Below the pieces are notes generated by a model, which searched no databases, was not told where the DNA came from, and saw only the letters and a list, made by a program, of their open reading frames with translations. Of a DNA stretch of 64,000 nt, positions 23,734-37,030 are shown piece after piece; positions within the stretch are counted from its first letter, which is position 1; every line of letters begins with the position of its first letter. The DNA is from an uncultured Pelagibacteraceae bacterium (GTDB lineage Bacteria > Pseudomonadota > Alphaproteobacteria > Pelagibacterales > Pelagibacteraceae), in assembly GCA_902596745.1 (NCBI GenBank), contig CACJUZ010000001.1, positions 186,001 to 250,000 on the forward strand. The letters are read 5' to 3'. A program made the position numbers and the translations under genes.

Positions 23734-25028
23734 AAATGAAAAAAAGATTTTATAATATAGCAATAGTTGGTCTTGGTAATATAGGTTCTTACTTGTTTAA
23801 TTTTTTAAATAAAAATAAGATCAATATATCAAATAAAAATATAAATAATTTCAAAATTATTTATGTTTCAGCAAAAAATAAAAATAAAAAGAGAAAAATT
23901 AATATTAAAAAAAATCAATGGGTAAAAAATTTTAAGACGATAATAAAAGATAAAAAAGTAGATATCATAGTTGAATTAATCGGTGGTTCAGAGGGAGCAG
24001 CAAAAAGTTTAGTTTTTGGTGCTTTAAAAAGTAAAAAACACGTTGTAACTGCTAATAAAGCCTTAATTTCTAAATATGGAGACCAATTATCTAAAATAGC
24101 TGAAAAAAATAAAGTTAATTTAGAATTTGAAGCAGCTGTTTGTGGAGGGGTTCCAATAATAAGATCTATTAAAGAGGGTTTAATTGCAAATAAAATAAAT
24201 CGTATTTATGGTATTTTTAATGGAACTTCAAATTATGTGTTATCATCTATGGATCAAAACAAAACATCCTTTAATACAACAATAAATAAAGCAATTAAAC
24301 TTGGTTACGCTGAGTCTAATCCATCATCAGATATTAATGGTGAGGATGTTGCTTCAAAAGTTAAAATATTATCATGTTTAAGTTTTAATTCTTTTATCAA
24401 TAAAAACATTCATGTAGAGGGTATAAAAGATATTGATGAAGAGGATATTTCTAACGCCAATAAATTAGGCTATAAAATAAAATTAATGGGATTTTCAGAA
24501 ATATTAGATAATAAAATTTTTCAAAGAGTGCATCCTACTCTAGTAGATAAATCTTCTTATATTGCAGGTGTTAATGGTGTATTAAATGCAGTTATTGTGG
24601 ATGGAAAACCTGTAGGAAAAAATATTATACAAGGAGAAGGAGCTGGACCATCAGCAACTACATCAGCACTTGTGTCTGATATATCCTCTATTATGAGAGG
24701 GAACATTAAATTTCCGTTTGCAATTTCAAATACCAGAAGAAAAAAATATTCAAGTGGAAAAATAACTGATTTGTTTTTTTCATCATACATTAGACTTAAT
24801 GTAAAAGATAGATATGGAGTATTAGCCGATATCACTAAAATATTTTCTAATAATAAGGTTTCTATTAAAAGAGTTTTACAAAGCCCACAAAAAAATAAAA
24901 AAAATTCTTCTATAGTAATAATTACTCACAGATCAAAAGATAATTATATTCAAAAAACATTGAAAACTTTAGTCAAAAAGTCTTATATAATTAAGAGACC
25001 TAAATTATTAAGAATTGAAAATGACTAA
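23730..25028 (+). CDS. hom: Homoserine dehydrogenase with C-terminal ACT domain (GTG start)
   Basis: VGLGNIGSYL, VVTANKALISKYG, GIFNGTSNYVLSSM, GYAESNPSSDINGEDVASKVKILS. Confidence 0.95.
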   Translation: MKMKKRFYNIAIVGLGNIGSYLFNFLNKNKINISNKNINNFKIIYVSAKNKNKKRKINIKKNQWVKNFKTIIKDKKVDIIVELIGGSEGAAKSLVFGALKSKKHVVTANKALISKYGDQLSKIAEKNKVNLEFEAAVCGGVPIIRSIKEGLIANKINRIYGIFNGTSNYVLSSMDQNKTSFNTTINKAIKLGYAESNPSSDINGEDVASKVKILSCLSFNSFINKNIHVEGIKDIDEEDISNANKLGYKIKLMGFSEILDNKIFQRVHPTLVDKSSYIAGVNGVLNAVIVDGKPVGKNIIQGEGAGPSATTSALVSDISSIMRGNIKFPFAISNTRRKKYSSGKITDLFFSSYIRLNVKDRYGVLADITKIFSNNKVSIKRVLQSPQKNKKNSSIVIITHRSKDNYIQKTLKTLVKKSYIIKRPKLLRIEND

Positions 25029-29290: not shown

Positions 29291-29536
29291 ATGAGTTTCT
29301 ACGTATACATGCTAAAATCAATTAGCAAAAAACCTGTTACTTACGTCGGTTATACAAAAAATATTACTAATAGAATCAAGCTTCATAATACCGGTAAAGG
29401 AGCAAAATTTACGAGAGGACGTAAATGGAGGTTAGTTTATAAAGAAAAATGTGCAACAAAAAACCAAGCAATTTCAAGAGAATATTATATAAAGAGCAAT
29501 AGAAACTTAAGAAATTATATAAAAAATAATAATTAA
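29291..29536 (+). CDS. GIY-YIG nuclease-family protein (YhbQ/URI-like)
   Basis: YVYMLKS...TYVGYTKNITNRIKLHNTGKGAKFTRGRKWRLVY. Confidence 0.9.
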   Translation: MSFYVYMLKSISKKPVTYVGYTKNITNRIKLHNTGKGAKFTRGRKWRLVYKEKCATKNQAISREYYIKSNRNLRNYIKNNN

Positions 29537-31668
29537 TGAAAATCTCAATTTTATTACCTTATAAAGAAAATTTTTCACCAATTTATCCAGGAGCAGTTTC
29601 CTTATTTGTAAAGGATACAACAAATATTAGTAAATATAAAAAAAATATTATTGTTTATGGAAATACAAATTATAATAAGATTTATCCGATTAGATATTTT
29701 AACATTCCTTTATCTAATTTTAAATTTCAAAGTAAAAGCAAACAATATGTCAACAAATTTATTCAAATTGAAAAGAATTTTCCATCAGATATTATTGAGA
29801 TACACAACAGACCTAATTACTTATCTGAAATAGTAAATACGCTGGGTAAGAAAAACTTAGTGTTGTATTTTCATAACGATCCTTTAACTATGACAGGATC
29901 AAAATCAATAAATGAGCGTAAGTTTCTTTTAAAATATTGCTATAAAATTATTTTTAATAGTAATTGGTCAAAAAAAAGGTTTTTAGAAGGGATGCATAAT
30001 AAGTTTGTTAATAGTGAAAAATTACTTGTAGTTTTTCAATCAGCAAAAAAAATTAAAGTTAATTTAAAACAAAAAAAGAAAGAAATTACGTTTGTTGGGA
30101 AATTAAATAGATCAAAAGGTTATGATATTTTTGGAAAAGCAGTTACTAAAATATTAGATAAATATCCTGACTGGAAAGCAAACGTTGTAGGTGACGAACA
30201 AAGAGATAAAATCGAATTTAAACATAAAAATTTAAAAAATTTTGGTTTTATTTCACACAATAAAGTAATTGAAATATATAAAAAAACTAGCATAGCTATA
30301 GTATGTTCTAGATGGGAGGAGCCTTTCGGTAGAACTAGTTTAGAAGCATCATCTGCTGGCTGCGCTGTTATAATAAGCAATAGAGGAGGTTTACCAGAAA
30401 CAATTACAAATGGTCTAATTTTAAAAGAATTAAGTCCTAAATCATTATATAAAAATATAGAATATTTAATAAGGAATCCTTCAAAGAGAAAAAATTATCA
30501 AAAAAAATCTATAAAAAATTTTTACTTAACTCATAAATTTGTTTCTAATAATATTGACTCTTACCGTAGTGAAAAATTTAAGTTTTCAAATCTGTTTAAT
30601 ATAAAAAAAGATTTATCACTTAGAATATTACATGTAACGAATTTCAATGAAAGACACGATGGGAGACTTTTTTTCAATACAGGTAGAAGAATTAATAATG
30701 GGTTAATTAGACTGGGTCATAGTATATTAGAATTTAGTGATAGAGATATACAAAAATATTATAAAAATTATAGTGATTTCTCAGGATCTAAAAATTTAAA
30801 TAATAAGCTCAAAAAAACTTGTTATAATTTTAAACCTGATTTAATAATTTTTGGTCATGCCGATTTAGTTTCTCCTGAAACTTTAGGTGAATTAAAAGAT
30901 GATTATCCAAATTTAAAAATGTCTCAATGGTTTCTCGATCCTTTAAATAAAAATGGTCCAGATTTTAATAGAAATAAAAATCGGATTTTAGATAAATGTG
31001 ATTTTATGGAAGCTAATTTTTTAACTACAAGTCCAGATGTTTTAAATTTTTTGTCAAAGAAAACTAGAAATTACTTTATTCCAAACCCGGCAGACAGCTC
31101 CTTTGAAACTTTAAGAAATTATAACAAAAACTGTAACATGGACGTTTTCTTTGCATTGAGTCACGGTGTTCATAGAGGAATATTAAAAACAGGAAAATAT
31201 GATGACAGAACTTCATTCGTCAAAAGGCTTATTGATAAAACTAAAAACGTAAAATTTGACATATATGGTATTGATAAAGTTCAACCTATTTGGGCAGATC
31301 ATTATTTCAAAACTATTTCAAATTCAAAAATGGGTTTAAATCTAAGTAGAGGTGATCCAATTAAATATTATAGCAGTGATAGAATTACACAAATCATTGG
31401 AAATGGTTTAGTCACACTAATTGATGAAAAAACAAAATATCAAGATTTTTTTGATAAAAATGAAATGGTTTTCTATAAAAATTTAGACGATTTATCTGAA
31501 AAAATTATAAAAATATCACAGGATGAAAAATTAAGAAAAAAGATAGGTAAGCAGGGTAGGGATAAATACTTAAAATATTTTAATTCAACATTAGTTGCAG
31601 ATTTTATATTAAATAAGACGTTCGATATAAAGAGCAAAACTAAATATTTGTGGAATAGTGGAAAATAA
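29536..31668 (+). CDS. Two-domain glycosyltransferase: N-terminal GT4-like plus C-terminal CgeB-like domain
   Basis: N-terminal FVGKLNRSKGYDIFGKA...SRWEEPFGRTSLEASSAGCAVIISNRGGLPE; C-terminal region from about LRILHVTNFNERHDGRLFF ends with KMGLNLSRGDP...DRITQIIGNGLVTLIDEKTKYQDFF. Confidence 0.85.
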   Translation: MKISILLPYKENFSPIYPGAVSLFVKDTTNISKYKKNIIVYGNTNYNKIYPIRYFNIPLSNFKFQSKSKQYVNKFIQIEKNFPSDIIEIHNRPNYLSEIVNTLGKKNLVLYFHNDPLTMTGSKSINERKFLLKYCYKIIFNSNWSKKRFLEGMHNKFVNSEKLLVVFQSAKKIKVNLKQKKKEITFVGKLNRSKGYDIFGKAVTKILDKYPDWKANVVGDEQRDKIEFKHKNLKNFGFISHNKVIEIYKKTSIAIVCSRWEEPFGRTSLEASSAGCAVIISNRGGLPETITNGLILKELSPKSLYKNIEYLIRNPSKRKNYQKKSIKNFYLTHKFVSNNIDSYRSEKFKFSNLFNIKKDLSLRILHVTNFNERHDGRLFFNTGRRINNGLIRLGHSILEFSDRDIQKYYKNYSDFSGSKNLNNKLKKTCYNFKPDLIIFGHADLVSPETLGELKDDYPNLKMSQWFLDPLNKNGPDFNRNKNRILDKCDFMEANFLTTSPDVLNFLSKKTRNYFIPNPADSSFETLRNYNKNCNMDVFFALSHGVHRGILKTGKYDDRTSFVKRLIDKTKNVKFDIYGIDKVQPIWADHYFKTISNSKMGLNLSRGDPIKYYSSDRITQIIGNGLVTLIDEKTKYQDFFDKNEMVFYKNLDDLSEKIIKISQDEKLRKKIGKQGRDKYLKYFNSTLVADFILNKTFDIKSKTKYLWNSGK

Positions 31669-32668
31669 AAAAATCTTAATTTTAAAGAATGATAGGGCAG
31701 GAGATTTTATTAGTTCTGTAAGATTGATTACAGAACTCAAAAATAGAAATAATTTAATAGATATATACTTATCTAAATTTAATTATAATTTTAATTTTTT
31801 AATACCAGATTGTAATTATAAACAGATTAGTTTTGATTTAAAAATAGTTGATAAAGTTAAGGTCTGTATTGATATATTTAAAAATAAATATGATGCAGTA
31901 TTTATTTTAAGTCCAAAAAACTTCTATTATTTTTTACCTTTGATTTTTAGAAATATAAAATTTTATGCTATTGTAGTAAATGGCAAAAAACGTAATAGAC
32001 CAATTAATTTTTTAAGAAAATATTTGCATAAATTTAGCGTTAGAAATAGAAATAAAAAGAATAAATTAAATATTATTCAAAGTAATTTAAGCTTAATTGA
32101 TATAAAAGAAATACCAGACTTTAAATATTTTGTAAAAAATTCCTCTAATTTAAATTATTTTACTCATACTTCTAATAATTATATCTTTTTTCAATTTAAA
32201 TATAATTTTTTTAAAGAATTGAATTGGAGTTTTAAAGAATTTGAATTAATTATAAATTTTTTAGAAACAAAATATGAAAAAGTTATCTTTTCATCTGATT
32301 TAGAAAAAAATAGTTTTGATGAATTGTTTGAAAAAAATTATTCTTTTATAGATTTTGAAAAAAATGCTACTTTTATTAAAAAAAACAATAAAAGAGTAAT
32401 ATATTTAAAAAAAGTTGATCCGTTAAATCTATTTTTAATAATTAAAAAAGCAAATAAAATATTAGGTCCACATGGTCTAATAACTCAACTTGCTTATTTA
32501 ATTGGAAAACAATCAATAAATTTATTTAATTTTAAAATAAAAAGTTTAAATGATTATTATCATCAGAAAATAAGTTTTTCAGAGTGGTATTCGAATATGG
32601 GAATTAATTTTATTTTTTTAAATAGTGATATAAATAAATCAATAAGAAAAATATCTAAATTTATATGA
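31658..32668 (+). CDS. Glycosyltransferase family 9 (heptosyltransferase)-like, divergent (GTG start)
   Basis: KILILKNDRAGDFISSVRLITELK N-terminus and LGPHGLITQLAYLIGKQSINLF C-terminal motif. Confidence 0.65.
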   Translation: MENKKILILKNDRAGDFISSVRLITELKNRNNLIDIYLSKFNYNFNFLIPDCNYKQISFDLKIVDKVKVCIDIFKNKYDAVFILSPKNFYYFLPLIFRNIKFYAIVVNGKKRNRPINFLRKYLHKFSVRNRNKKNKLNIIQSNLSLIDIKEIPDFKYFVKNSSNLNYFTHTSNNYIFFQFKYNFFKELNWSFKEFELIINFLETKYEKVIFSSDLEKNSFDELFEKNYSFIDFEKNATFIKKNNKRVIYLKKVDPLNLFLIIKKANKILGPHGLITQLAYLIGKQSINLFNFKIKSLNDYYHQKISFSEWYSNMGINFIFLNSDINKSIRKISKFI

Positions 32669-33639
32669 ATATTTGTTTTTTGGATAACAATAAAATATCG
32701 TATGATTATACATCTCTAGATAATGAAAATATCAGAGGTGCTGAAAAAACTTTAATTAACTTATCTCTTAAATTAAACAAATTAGGACATAAAATAACTG
32801 TTCTAAATCATACTAATAAAAAAATAGAGTACGAAAATATGAGATGGATTAATATTTTAAAATATAATGAAGATACTATTTATGATTTAGCAATAAGTAA
32901 TAATGATTTGAATAATTTCAAATATATAAAATCAAAAAAAAATATAGCAATTTCATATAGTATTCAGACAATTGAAAAATTTATAAGAAAAAAACAACTC
33001 TTTGCATTTTTAAAATACAGGCCAAAGATTTTATTAATAGGTTCATATCATAAACAAAAAAGAAGTTATCCAACTAGAATATTCGGGTCTGCTATAATTC
33101 ATTTAGCAGTTGATGATATTTTTTTAAAAACTAAACTAGATAATAACGTAGATAATAATAAAGCACTATTTACATCATACCCTGATAGAAACTTGGATAT
33201 GTTAATTTCATTATGGATTAATTATATTTATAAAAATAACAAAAATTATAAATTATATATAACTCCTACTAAAAAAAAATACGATGAATTTAATATAATT
33301 AATAGAAGTCTTTCTAACAGAAATAATTTAATTAAAGATCTATTGAATACTCGTGTGTTCTTGGTTCCTGGACACAAAGCTGAACTTTATTGCTTAGCAG
33401 CAGAAGAGGCTAGAGAGCTTTGTATTCCTATAGTTACACTAGGAATAGGTTCTTTAAATGAGCGTGTGATACACAATAAAACTGGATTTATAGCAAAAAC
33501 AACGAAAGAATTTGCAGAATATACTCTAAAATTGTTTAAGGATGATGAGCTTTGGGGTGAAATTAGAGAGAATCTTTACAATTTGAGAAATTCAAATAAT
33601 TGGGATTTAGCAACAAAAGATTTCTTAAAAAACTGCTAA
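32665..33639 (+). CDS. GT4-like glycosyltransferase
   Basis: RGAEKTLINLSLKLNKLGHKITVLNH and AELYCLAAEEARELCIPIVTLGIGSLNERVIHNKTGFIAKT. Confidence 0.75.
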   Translation: MNICFLDNNKISYDYTSLDNENIRGAEKTLINLSLKLNKLGHKITVLNHTNKKIEYENMRWINILKYNEDTIYDLAISNNDLNNFKYIKSKKNIAISYSIQTIEKFIRKKQLFAFLKYRPKILLIGSYHKQKRSYPTRIFGSAIIHLAVDDIFLKTKLDNNVDNNKALFTSYPDRNLDMLISLWINYIYKNNKNYKLYITPTKKKYDEFNIINRSLSNRNNLIKDLLNTRVFLVPGHKAELYCLAAEEARELCIPIVTLGIGSLNERVIHNKTGFIAKTTKEFAEYTLKLFKDDELWGEIRENLYNLRNSNNWDLATKDFLKNC

Positions 33640-33640
33640 T

Positions 33641-34387
33641 TTAATCTTTTTTAATAAAGATAAAGTTTCTTTCTTTATGATAATTTTCATTATCTAAAAC
33701 ATCTACTAATTGATTATTACTAAACGTATGGGCGTTATAACCATAATTTTTAATAGTATTAATTGTTTGAATTATAGGCTTTTGAGTATGTTTTTTTTCT
33801 ATTTCAACTAACAAAATTGGCATATTTTTCTTAATTGTATTACTTGCTCCATTGATTACATTTTGCTCGTGACCTTCAACATCAATTTTAATAAATCCTA
33901 TTTTTTGATTAATTTTGATGTTATCCAATTTCACTTTTTTAACTTTAAGTGATTTAAACTTATCAAAATGATTTTCTTTGTGTATTGATGCAGCACCTAA
34001 TTTATAAAGTTCTTCTATATTATCTTTAAATATAGAATAAGATCTTAAAGGTAATTTTAAGTCGGTTTCCCCTTCAGAGTCTGACAAAGCAAAATTGTAA
34101 AGTTGAATATTACTGATAATTTTATTTAAATTTTTTTCCAAATATGGATATAGTAGGGGATTAGGTTCAAAAGCATGCACCATTTTAAAATTTTGAGCTA
34201 ATTTAAATGAATAAATGCCTCTATAAACACCAATATCAATAGCATCTTTTGTTCTATCAGAAAATCTGTCAATAATTTGTAGTTCCTTTTCATAATCTTT
34301 ATTTATAGCTCTTATAAGTCTTTTTTTTAGTAAATAGCTTTCTTTAAAAAAAATTTTTTTTAATAAAAATTCAATATCTTTAATCAT
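33641..34387 (-). CDS. FkbM-family methyltransferase
   Basis: DAIDIGVYRGIYSFKLA...HAFEPNPLLYPYL...IGFIKIDVEGHEQNVINGA. Confidence 0.87.
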   Translation of the reverse strand: MIKDIEFLLKKIFFKESYLLKKRLIRAINKDYEKELQIIDRFSDRTKDAIDIGVYRGIYSFKLAQNFKMVHAFEPNPLLYPYLEKNLNKIISNIQLYNFALSDSEGETDLKLPLRSYSIFKDNIEELYKLGAASIHKENHFDKFKSLKVKKVKLDNIKINQKIGFIKIDVEGHEQNVINGASNTIKKNMPILLVEIEKKHTQKPIIQTINTIKNYGYNAHTFSNNQLVDVLDNENYHKERNFIFIKKD

Positions 34388-34395
34388 TAATTTAA

Positions 34396-35154
34396 TTAAT
34401 CAAAATTCACTTTTAAAAGATTTGAGTCATTTCTTACAAACACACAATCAAACTGTAATAAAAAAGAATTTTCTTTACCAAGTCTTTTCATATCAAAGAT
34501 ATCATATAGTCTGTATTGTTTATCTTTCATATAATTTATTACTTCGTTAAAAAGAGGTGCATCTTTATTATATTCATGAATGGATGTCTCAAGAATGATT
34601 ATTTCAAAAGATTTTATGAATTCATTTAAACCATTTAATATTATTAGTTCTGAACCTTGAGTATCAAGTTTAATCAGGTTGTTATGAGTACTTTTTATCT
34701 CATCTGGTAATAATTCTGAAAGTTTTTTTGATTTTAATTTTTTAATTTCTCTTTCGTTCGAAGTATTTTCCTTAAAAATTGATGATCCATAACCCATTTT
34801 GAAAAATTCATAATCTTTATTATCGTCTGTTAATAAACAAATATTAAATTTTATATTTTTGTTCTGAGAAGCTAGTAATGAAAGTTTTTTTTCATTATCC
34901 TCATTAGCATCAAATAAATAATAAAATGATTTACCAAAATATTTTATTGTTTTTTGTGTCCATTCCCCATAACCACATCCAACGTCAATTATAAATTTTG
35001 GATTAAAACCTTTTGAGTATAATGATTTTAAAATTAAGCTGGTATTTGTAATTTGATTTTTGTTTTGGTATTTATGATGTAGTTTGTGATTATCACTCAT
35101 TAAGTATCTGCAAAAACGTGTAACTCTTTCTAGAAATTTATTTATTTGATACAT
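34396..35154 (-). CDS. FkbM-family methyltransferase
   Basis: FIIDVGCGYGEWT...FDANEDNEKKL...NLIKLDTQGSELIILNGL. Confidence 0.87.
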   Translation of the reverse strand: MYQINKFLERVTRFCRYLMSDNHKLHHKYQNKNQITNTSLILKSLYSKGFNPKFIIDVGCGYGEWTQKTIKYFGKSFYYLFDANEDNEKKLSLLASQNKNIKFNICLLTDDNKDYEFFKMGYGSSIFKENTSNEREIKKLKSKKLSELLPDEIKSTHNNLIKLDTQGSELIILNGLNEFIKSFEIIILETSIHEYNKDAPLFNEVINYMKDKQYRLYDIFDMKRLGKENSFLLQFDCVFVRNDSNLLKVNFD

Positions 35155-35166
35155 AAATTTTAAGTT

Positions 35167-36120
35167 TTATATTTTTATTTTATTTAATGCGTTGTTTTTA
35201 AAAATGTTTGCCTCTTTAATATACCTTCTTACCATTTGTGTTGTTTTATGTCCCGTCATAGCCATTATACTTCTCTCATCCGCGCCCGCCTCTGCAGCCA
35301 CAGTAGCAAATCCTGATCTAAGACTATGACCTGAAAAATTATTATTATCAATTCCTGCTAATCTTAGTGAATCCTTTATTATTAAAACTACAGACTGATC
35401 AGTTAACCTATGCTTAGTTAATGAAGATCCTTTGGCAAATCTCCTAAAAATTGGACCGGTTTTAATTTTTGATATTTTTAACCAATCTTTTAAGTTTGCT
35501 ACCGGGCAATATTCTTTGTTTGTAAAGTAGGGCAGGCCTTTTATCATACCTTCTCCATATTGATCTGTTTTAGACTTTCTTAGTGTTATTTTTAAACCTT
35601 CATCAACGAATTCTAGGTCTTCTTTGTTTATTGATATTAGCTCTGTACGTCTAAATCCTCCACCAAAACCTAATAATATTATTGTTTTATTTCTCAGTTT
35701 TACTATTTCTTCAATATTTTGTTTATTAATTACATTAATAATTTGTTTTAAATGATTGATTAATATAGGTTTTTTACCTGTTTGGTAGCTGCCTTTAATT
35801 CTCTTAATACCCATTAAATTCTCTATAATAACTGGATGTTTTGTATCCAAGTAATGACCTTTCATTTTATGAACTACTCCAATTGACACTAATCTTCGTC
35901 TTAAAGTGCTAATTTTTGAAGATTTAGATAGATGAGTTAAGTATAAAGATATTATTTTAGGATCACTTGGCATTGATTTGAAACCATGTTTTGCGCAAAA
36001 AATACCAAAATCTTTGAAATCAGACTTATAAGCTCGAAGAGTATTATTTGCTTTCGAGGTTTTAAGGTTATTTAGAGTTTCCTCATGTAAAGCTTTTATG
36101 TCAGTTGTCAGTTCATTCAT
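35167..36120 (-). CDS. Tyrosine recombinase/integrase
   Basis: LLGFGGGFRRTELISI, SGHSLRSGFATVAAEAGADERSIMAMTGHKTTQMVRRYI: R...HxxR...H...Y catalytic set. Confidence 0.94.
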   Translation of the reverse strand: MNELTTDIKALHEETLNNLKTSKANNTLRAYKSDFKDFGIFCAKHGFKSMPSDPKIISLYLTHLSKSSKISTLRRRLVSIGVVHKMKGHYLDTKHPVIIENLMGIKRIKGSYQTGKKPILINHLKQIINVINKQNIEEIVKLRNKTIILLGFGGGFRRTELISINKEDLEFVDEGLKITLRKSKTDQYGEGMIKGLPYFTNKEYCPVANLKDWLKISKIKTGPIFRRFAKGSSLTKHRLTDQSVVLIIKDSLRLAGIDNNNFSGHSLRSGFATVAAEAGADERSIMAMTGHKTTQMVRRYIKEANIFKNNALNKIKI

Positions 36121-36123
36121 ATC

Positions 36124-36158
36124 ATTACTAGTGATAACAATTAATTATCATTAGTAAT
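36124..36158. repeat. Lox-like inverted repeat (14-bp arms, 7-bp spacer)
   Basis: attactagtgataa-caattaa-ttatcattagtaat; 13/14 arm complementarity; 3 bp upstream of the recombinase start codon. Confidence 0.75.
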
Positions 36159-36204
36159 ATAATAACTCATTTTAGAAGTCAAGCAAATAAGATAAAATAA
36201 TTTT

Positions 36205-36372: not shown

Positions 36373-36774
36373 ATGTTTGAAAGCAGGAAAAGAGTTATTT
36401 TAGATAGAGGGCCAAGCTGGCCAGATTACGATAAAGCAGAACCATTTATGATTAGGTATTATATTTTATTTAGAAAAAGGCCTAAATGGTTTCCATTCAA
36501 TATTTTAGTTCATAAGATACTCAAGGAAGATAGAGGAGATTTACACGACCATTACTGGTCCTATATAACAATCATTTTAAAAGGTGGTTATTGGGAAACT
36601 ACTAATAAAGGTACTTTCTGGAGAGGTCCTGGATACATTGGTTTCAGAAAAAACACTGATAAACATAGCCTTAAACTGAGGGATAATAAGCCTGCGTGGA
36701 CTATTATGCTGGTAGGTCCTCACCACTCTAGCAAAACAAGTTCAAAATATCAAAATGAAGCTGAAAGGCACTGA
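36373..36774 (+). CDS. Cupin-like hypothetical protein
   Basis: LHDHYWSYITIILKGGYWETT...WRGPGYIGFRKNTDKHSLKL...PAWTIMLVGP. Confidence 0.6.
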   Translation: MFESRKRVILDRGPSWPDYDKAEPFMIRYYILFRKRPKWFPFNILVHKILKEDRGDLHDHYWSYITIILKGGYWETTNKGTFWRGPGYIGFRKNTDKHSLKLRDNKPAWTIMLVGPHHSSKTSSKYQNEAERH

Positions 36775-37030
36775 TTTTCAGATTAAAGTTTGGAAGTATT
36801 TGCTTAATATACCAAAAGGCAAGGTCAAAACCTATAAAGAGGTAGCTATAGCCATTAAAAGCCCCTATTCAGCTCGTGCTGTAGGCAATGCGGTAGGTAA
36901 AAACCCCTATGCTCCCAAAATACCCTGTCATAGGGTGATTAAGTCAGACGGTTCACTAGGAGGATATTCAGGTAAAGGTGGTATTAAAACTAAAAGAAAA
37001 ATGCTTAAAAAGGAGGGTATAACGCTCTAG
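36755..37030 (+). CDS. Methylated-DNA-protein alkyltransferase, stand-alone DNA-binding/active-site domain
   Basis: TDFQIKVWKYLLNIPKGKVKTYKEVA, ARAVGNAVGKNP, IPCHRVIKSDGSLGGYSGG-like: intact PCHRV. Confidence 0.92.
   Translation: MKLKGTDFQIKVWKYLLNIPKGKVKTYKEVAIAIKSPYSARAVGNAVGKNPYAPKIPCHRVIKSDGSLGGYSGKGGIKTKRKMLKKEGITL

Follow-up and report, generated by a model that had tools for sequence, protein, structure and literature searches.

The window analysed here is a stretch of 64,000 nucleotides from an uncultured bacterium of the Pelagibacteraceae (SAR11). On its reverse strand, at positions 35167–36120, it encodes a single Xer-like tyrosine recombinase of 317 amino acids, which matches PF00589 at 1.9e-19 and in which the catalytic residues R156, K183, H264, R267, H290 and Y299 are invariant across the orthologues aligned (alignment A1 numbering, first Met not counted). 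A palindrome of 35 bp occupies positions 36124–36158 and ends 3 bp upstream of the recombinase ATG (36118–36120). On the forward strand it reads attactagtgataa-caattaa-ttatcattagtaat, with 14-bp arms that are complementary at 13 of 14 positions and a 7-nt spacer, and the letters of the window confirm it as the first-pass annotation had described it. Read along the gene strand (reverse), it is ATTACTAATGATAA-TTAATTG-TTATCACTAGTAAT, which we regard as a candidate dif-like recombination site on the grounds of conservation and copy number. It comprises a left arm (36145–36158), a putative recombinase half-site that overlaps the predicted −10 element of the gene; an asymmetric central spacer TTAATTG of 7 nt (36138–36144), conserved across loci and presumed to be the strand-exchange region; and a right arm (36124–36137), the second putative half-site. 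A −35-like box, TTGACT, lies further upstream on the same strand (36177–36182), and its TTGAC is conserved ahead of the site. The recombinase gene borders on a group of genes for glycosyltransferase-like proteins and FkbM methyltransferases (29536–35154), and in each of 12 loci that were compared, one large glycosyltransferase gene lies within approximately 1–6 kb of the recombinase. Beyond the site there is a small MGMT-like (PF01035) gene (36755–37030), the cluster of which adjoins the recombinase in nine of these 12 loci.

The geometry of the palindrome is weak evidence when taken alone, as it is no better than chance. When spacers of 3–11 nt are admitted, three palindromes of like quality are present in the window, compared with 1.5 per dinucleotide shuffle; for spacers of exactly 7 nt the expectation falls to 0.1 per shuffle. 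Other palindromes with 13/14 complementarity are located at 23837 and 54328, with spacers of 4 and 7 nt, respectively, and lie within chance expectation. The frequency of about 1.5 similar palindromes per shuffled window would be compatible with a chance palindrome in AT-rich DNA. This explanation is refuted by the retention of the site beside orthologues that share 55–90% protein identity while the flanks have diverged, and its probability is practically nil. As judged from sequence comparison, it is conservation and not geometry that is decisive for the significance of the palindrome.

Lack of conservation of the repeat beside orthologous recombinases, which the first-pass annotation had named as grounds for refutation, was not observed: the site precedes all of the approximately 109 orthologues in the first set, always in one orientation and surrounded by differing DNA. 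Orthologues are present in 296 of 397 genomes of the family and in 121 of the 140 genomes with a completeness of 90% or more. The 133 distinct recombinase loci yielded 43 distinct sites. The inner arm GATAA/TTATC is the same in all 133 loci. Because the search pattern prescribed part of the inner arms and spacer, this constancy is to some extent built in; among the approximately 109 orthologues of the first, unselected set, hardly any variation is seen either. The spacer is TTAATTG in 105 loci and TTAATGG in 20 (together 125 of 133). The outer arms fall into two symmetric types, ATTACTA...TAGTAAT and TTCC...GGAA, and the symmetry of the arms is maintained, with the pair 7/29 being T-A or A-T in each of the 43 distinct sites. 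Mapped on the recombinase tree, the arm type (ATTACTA or TTCC) changes once, compared with a mean of 13 changes after shuffling. In several genomes of the genus to which the window belongs (G052, G079, G094 and others), the recombinase has diverged far more strongly (E of approximately 1e-115 to 1e-125 versus 1e-175 or better), which suggests that SAR11 lineages have exchanged the gene. The gene is absent from 19 of the 140 genomes that are at least 90% complete, including G012 (99% complete). Among 16 gene-less genomes that were checked, there were three in which the flanking glycosyltransferase could be judged and was broken or lay at or near a contig end. This suggests assembly gaps where a judgement can be made, an explanation that does not account for G012. 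Five fairly complete genomes (G012, G070, G084, G019 and G172) yielded neither a match to the XerD model nor a copy of this recombinase.

The recombinase is the only PF00589 protein of its own genome and the sole tyrosine recombinase in eight of 11 single-contig genomes; the other three have further matches elsewhere, one of which represents two fragments of a broken gene. It scores far below the cut-offs of the models for known Xer proteins: 54.9 bits versus 335 for XerC (TIGR02224), 67.5 versus 330 for XerD (TIGR02225), 37 versus 267 for XerS (NF003462) and 64 versus 220 for XerA (NF040815). No canonical XerC or XerD was found in the Pelagibacteraceae genomes tested, in which the best scores (64–82 bits) came from this recombinase. 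By contrast, f2, the sister family within the order (genomes G397–G405), retains two canonical XerC/XerD-like proteins, with XerD-like scores of 307–325 and 244–258 bits. The FtsK gamma domain (PF09397) was detected in 12 of 12 genomes; the match in the genome of the window (G000:C7:7205-7390) contains one TAG and may cover no more than the gene's end. KOPS-like GGGNAGGG motifs point toward the site in 12 instances and away from it in two, thin counts that come from one third of three genomes. An AlphaFold model built from 39 sequences has a pLDDT of 78, with low values around the catalytic H/R/Y end. The best fold match of the model in the PDB is Cre (E of 1e-11), followed by archaeal XerA, XerH and XerD, a ranking that serves only as a lead because the C-terminal catalytic part is poorly predicted.

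A near-exact search recovered one site in each of nine genomes, and of 397 Pelagibacteraceae genomes, 287 have a single copy of the core and none has more than one. The search for second copies advised by the first-pass annotation returned only chance-level half-site matches in the window and its own genome. The site lies opposite the replication origin, at the terminus. In all 11 single-contig genomes its distance to parB is 0.461–0.540 of a turn; in genome G026 (1,308,759 bp), for example, it is located at 998,833–998,867. The parB–site axis fits the strand asymmetry at fourfold codon sites when gene strand is accounted for (three genomes; permutation p of 0.015, 0.005 and <0.005), an asymmetry that places the terminus only to within about ±100–180 kb. 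Raw GC skew is uninformative, because gene-strand bias dominates it. Lineages have some of the flanking genes in common and differ in others; because the genomes retain a degree of synteny in this region, the 11 terminus positions are not independent.

These data also bear on two other roles for a recombinase with an adjacent palindrome. The gene could encode an integrase of the genomic island or phage type, with the palindrome as its attachment site in a SAR11 hypervariable region, as its PF00589 match, its matches to PHROG integrase models and its place among glycosyltransferases and FkbM methyltransferases might indicate. Such an integrase would hardly be near-universal and single-copy, its chromosomal position is fixed at the terminus, neither a second attachment copy nor element boundaries were found, and phages hold only weak relatives of the protein; we have rejected this possibility as very unlikely. 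An invertible promoter or phase switch worked by the recombinase would be in keeping with the overlap of the site with a promoter. The second, inverted copy that inversion requires is absent from the genome and its relatives, and the single orientation of the upstream regions speaks against it as well, so that this role was likewise rejected and is more improbable still.

Relatives of the recombinase are frequent on plasmids. A collection restricted to plasmids has 2,988 records with one, the best sharing 43% identity over 94% of the protein. In a comparison that covered SAR11, plasmid and f2 sequences, the SAR11 proteins group with those of plasmids in a single clade, separate from the XerC/XerD proteins of f2 with a support of 100/100. 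A GATAA-N6/7-TT(A/C)TC palindrome, or a version with one base changed, is found upstream of 13 of 19 plasmid relatives sampled, as in plasmids of Niallia (ACTTCCGATAA-tatatag-TTATCGGAAGT) and Protochlamydia (TAACGTTCGATAA-tgtgttc-TTATCGAACGTTA), and the spacers differ from plasmid to plasmid. A literature search retrieved no functional description of this clade. Together with its palindrome, it may possibly constitute an undescribed plasmid resolution system.

Copies of the site also occur in viruses. Dif-like sites are present in the isolated Pelagibacter phages HTVC035P, HTVC106P, HTVC100P, HTVC024P and Greip, in non-coding DNA near the gene for the terminase large subunit (terL), and they have no recombinase gene beside them; an annotated integrase was sought in HTVC035P and none was found. 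Many IMG/VR viral contigs of low GC content carry an ATTACTA-type site, a TTCC-type site or both near terL, frequently in tandem and with spacers that vary from 6 to 8 nt. The phage sites mimic the host site. Spacers among them that differ from that of the host would favour resolution within phage DNA over simple integration.

The site is closely tied to the predicted promoter of the recombinase gene. TTGAC is found ahead of the site in all 133 loci and is separated from the arm by 18 nt in 123 of them, a distance that places the left arm partly across the predicted −10 element. A generic scan for promoters missed the TTGACT promoter, whose −10 fits the consensus too poorly; the prediction draws on conservation. 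The gene is probably autoregulated through the site, and the suggestion in the first-pass annotation that the repeat could be an autoregulatory operator is therefore probably also correct. In HTCC1062, SAR11_1019 (annotated as `xerD') and recA are both raised under sulfur limitation (published table in PMC5069961); from its position, SAR11_1019 would be the HTCC1062 copy of this gene. The palindrome might be an operator and nothing else, through which the recombinase or another factor represses the promoter, with recombination taking place elsewhere or never. The fixed overlap with the −10 element accords with this, the site always stands beside the gene, an operator role could by itself explain both this linkage and the conservation of the arms, and in one plasmid relative the site lies upstream of a toxin–antitoxin–recombinase operon. 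An operator alone leaves unexplained the location at the terminus in all 11 genomes, the constrained asymmetric spacer and the phage copies that lack a neighbouring recombinase gene, and no other copy in the genome is able to serve as a core site. We consider this explanation improbable.

What is usually the only tyrosine recombinase of SAR11 almost certainly has this palindrome as its target. The proposal in the first-pass annotation of a tyrosine-recombinase core site thus receives strong support from the copy number, the terminus position, the covariation of arm type with recombinase clade, the constrained asymmetric spacer, the plasmid relatives and the phage copies. What that annotation had missed is the connection with plasmid relatives and the membership of the site, as a likely dif site, in the only Xer-like system of SAR11. 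The locus displays several features of the single-recombinase Xer/dif class, namely a catalytically intact chromosomal recombinase, a single intergenic palindrome with a short centre, a location at the terminus and an FtsK gamma domain. We consider it likely that the palindrome serves as dif in a gene-linked single-recombinase Xer system that resolves SAR11 chromosome dimers. In this mechanism each arm would be occupied by one recombinase monomer; FtsK would bring two such sites, contributed by the two halves of the dimeric chromosome, into contact at the septum; and strand exchange would take place across the TTAATTG/TTAATGG spacer. As the left arm covers the promoter, the bound recombinase would probably repress its own gene. 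More tentatively, and with somewhat less than even confidence, we propose that SAR11 swapped XerCD/dif for a plasmid-type module of recombinase plus site that now resides at the terminus, and that pelagiphages lacking an integrase combine both arm types in tandem, with spacers that vary, so that whichever host recombinase they encounter can be used to resolve (or integrate) the phage genome.

Few bacterial groups of the ocean are as abundant as SAR11. In the survey of Carnoy and Roten (2009), Pelagibacter was said to have no dif/Xer system, and P. ubique has been cited as a free-living bacterium that lacks it, to show that a streamlined genome can do without the system (PMC2731167). Our literature search found no earlier description of a SAR11 dif site. 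If the proposed role is correct, the streamlining inference drawn from P. ubique falls, dif/Xer having been exchanged and not lost, and SAR11 becomes a further single-recombinase lineage. Whether recombinases of mobile elements were domesticated for dimer resolution is an open question discussed in PMC8138268, on which the SAR11 case would bear. The site would also be a host handle used by pelagiphages without an annotated integrase.

The SAR11 locus was compared with several known systems. It shares with XerCD/dif a tyrosine recombinase, the inner ATAA/TTAT palindrome, the terminus location and FtsK gamma, and differs in having one recombinase instead of two, a 7-nt spacer, XerC/XerD scores far below the cut-offs and a GATAA/TTATC half-site where the dif sites listed in PMC2731167 have a TTATG half. 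Its clade members on plasmids, the `site-specific integrases' of Alicyclobacillus, Niallia, Hymenobacter, Protochlamydia, Sphingobium and others, have 25–43% identity over most of the protein and, in 13 of 19, the GATAA-N6/7-TTATC-type palindrome upstream; they are plasmid-borne, and their outer arms and spacers vary. Cre/loxP of phage P1 likewise combines one recombinase, symmetric arms of 13–14 bp, a short asymmetric spacer and replicon dimer resolution, and Cre is the best PDB fold; its identity is only about 18%, the SAR11 system is chromosomal and the site sequences are without demonstrated similarity. XerL/dif of the Legionellales, which we compared by description only, is also a single-recombinase system with long uninterrupted symmetric arms in a lineage reported to lack dif/Xer (PMC9765430), whereas in L. 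pneumophila the site is more than 400 kb from the gene. XerH/difH of Helicobacter and Campylobacter has a single recombinase and a linked dif at the terminus (PMC2731167); XerH is larger (353–363 amino acids), ranked below Cre in the structure search and matches in fold only, at 15–16% identity. In XerS/difSL of streptococci and lactococci, as in SAR11, one dif-like palindrome at the terminus stands beside the gene for the one recombinase (PMC5357621; PMC2731167). difSL differs in its length of 31 bp, its 11-bp central region and its arms, and the SAR11 protein is far below the XerS cut-off.
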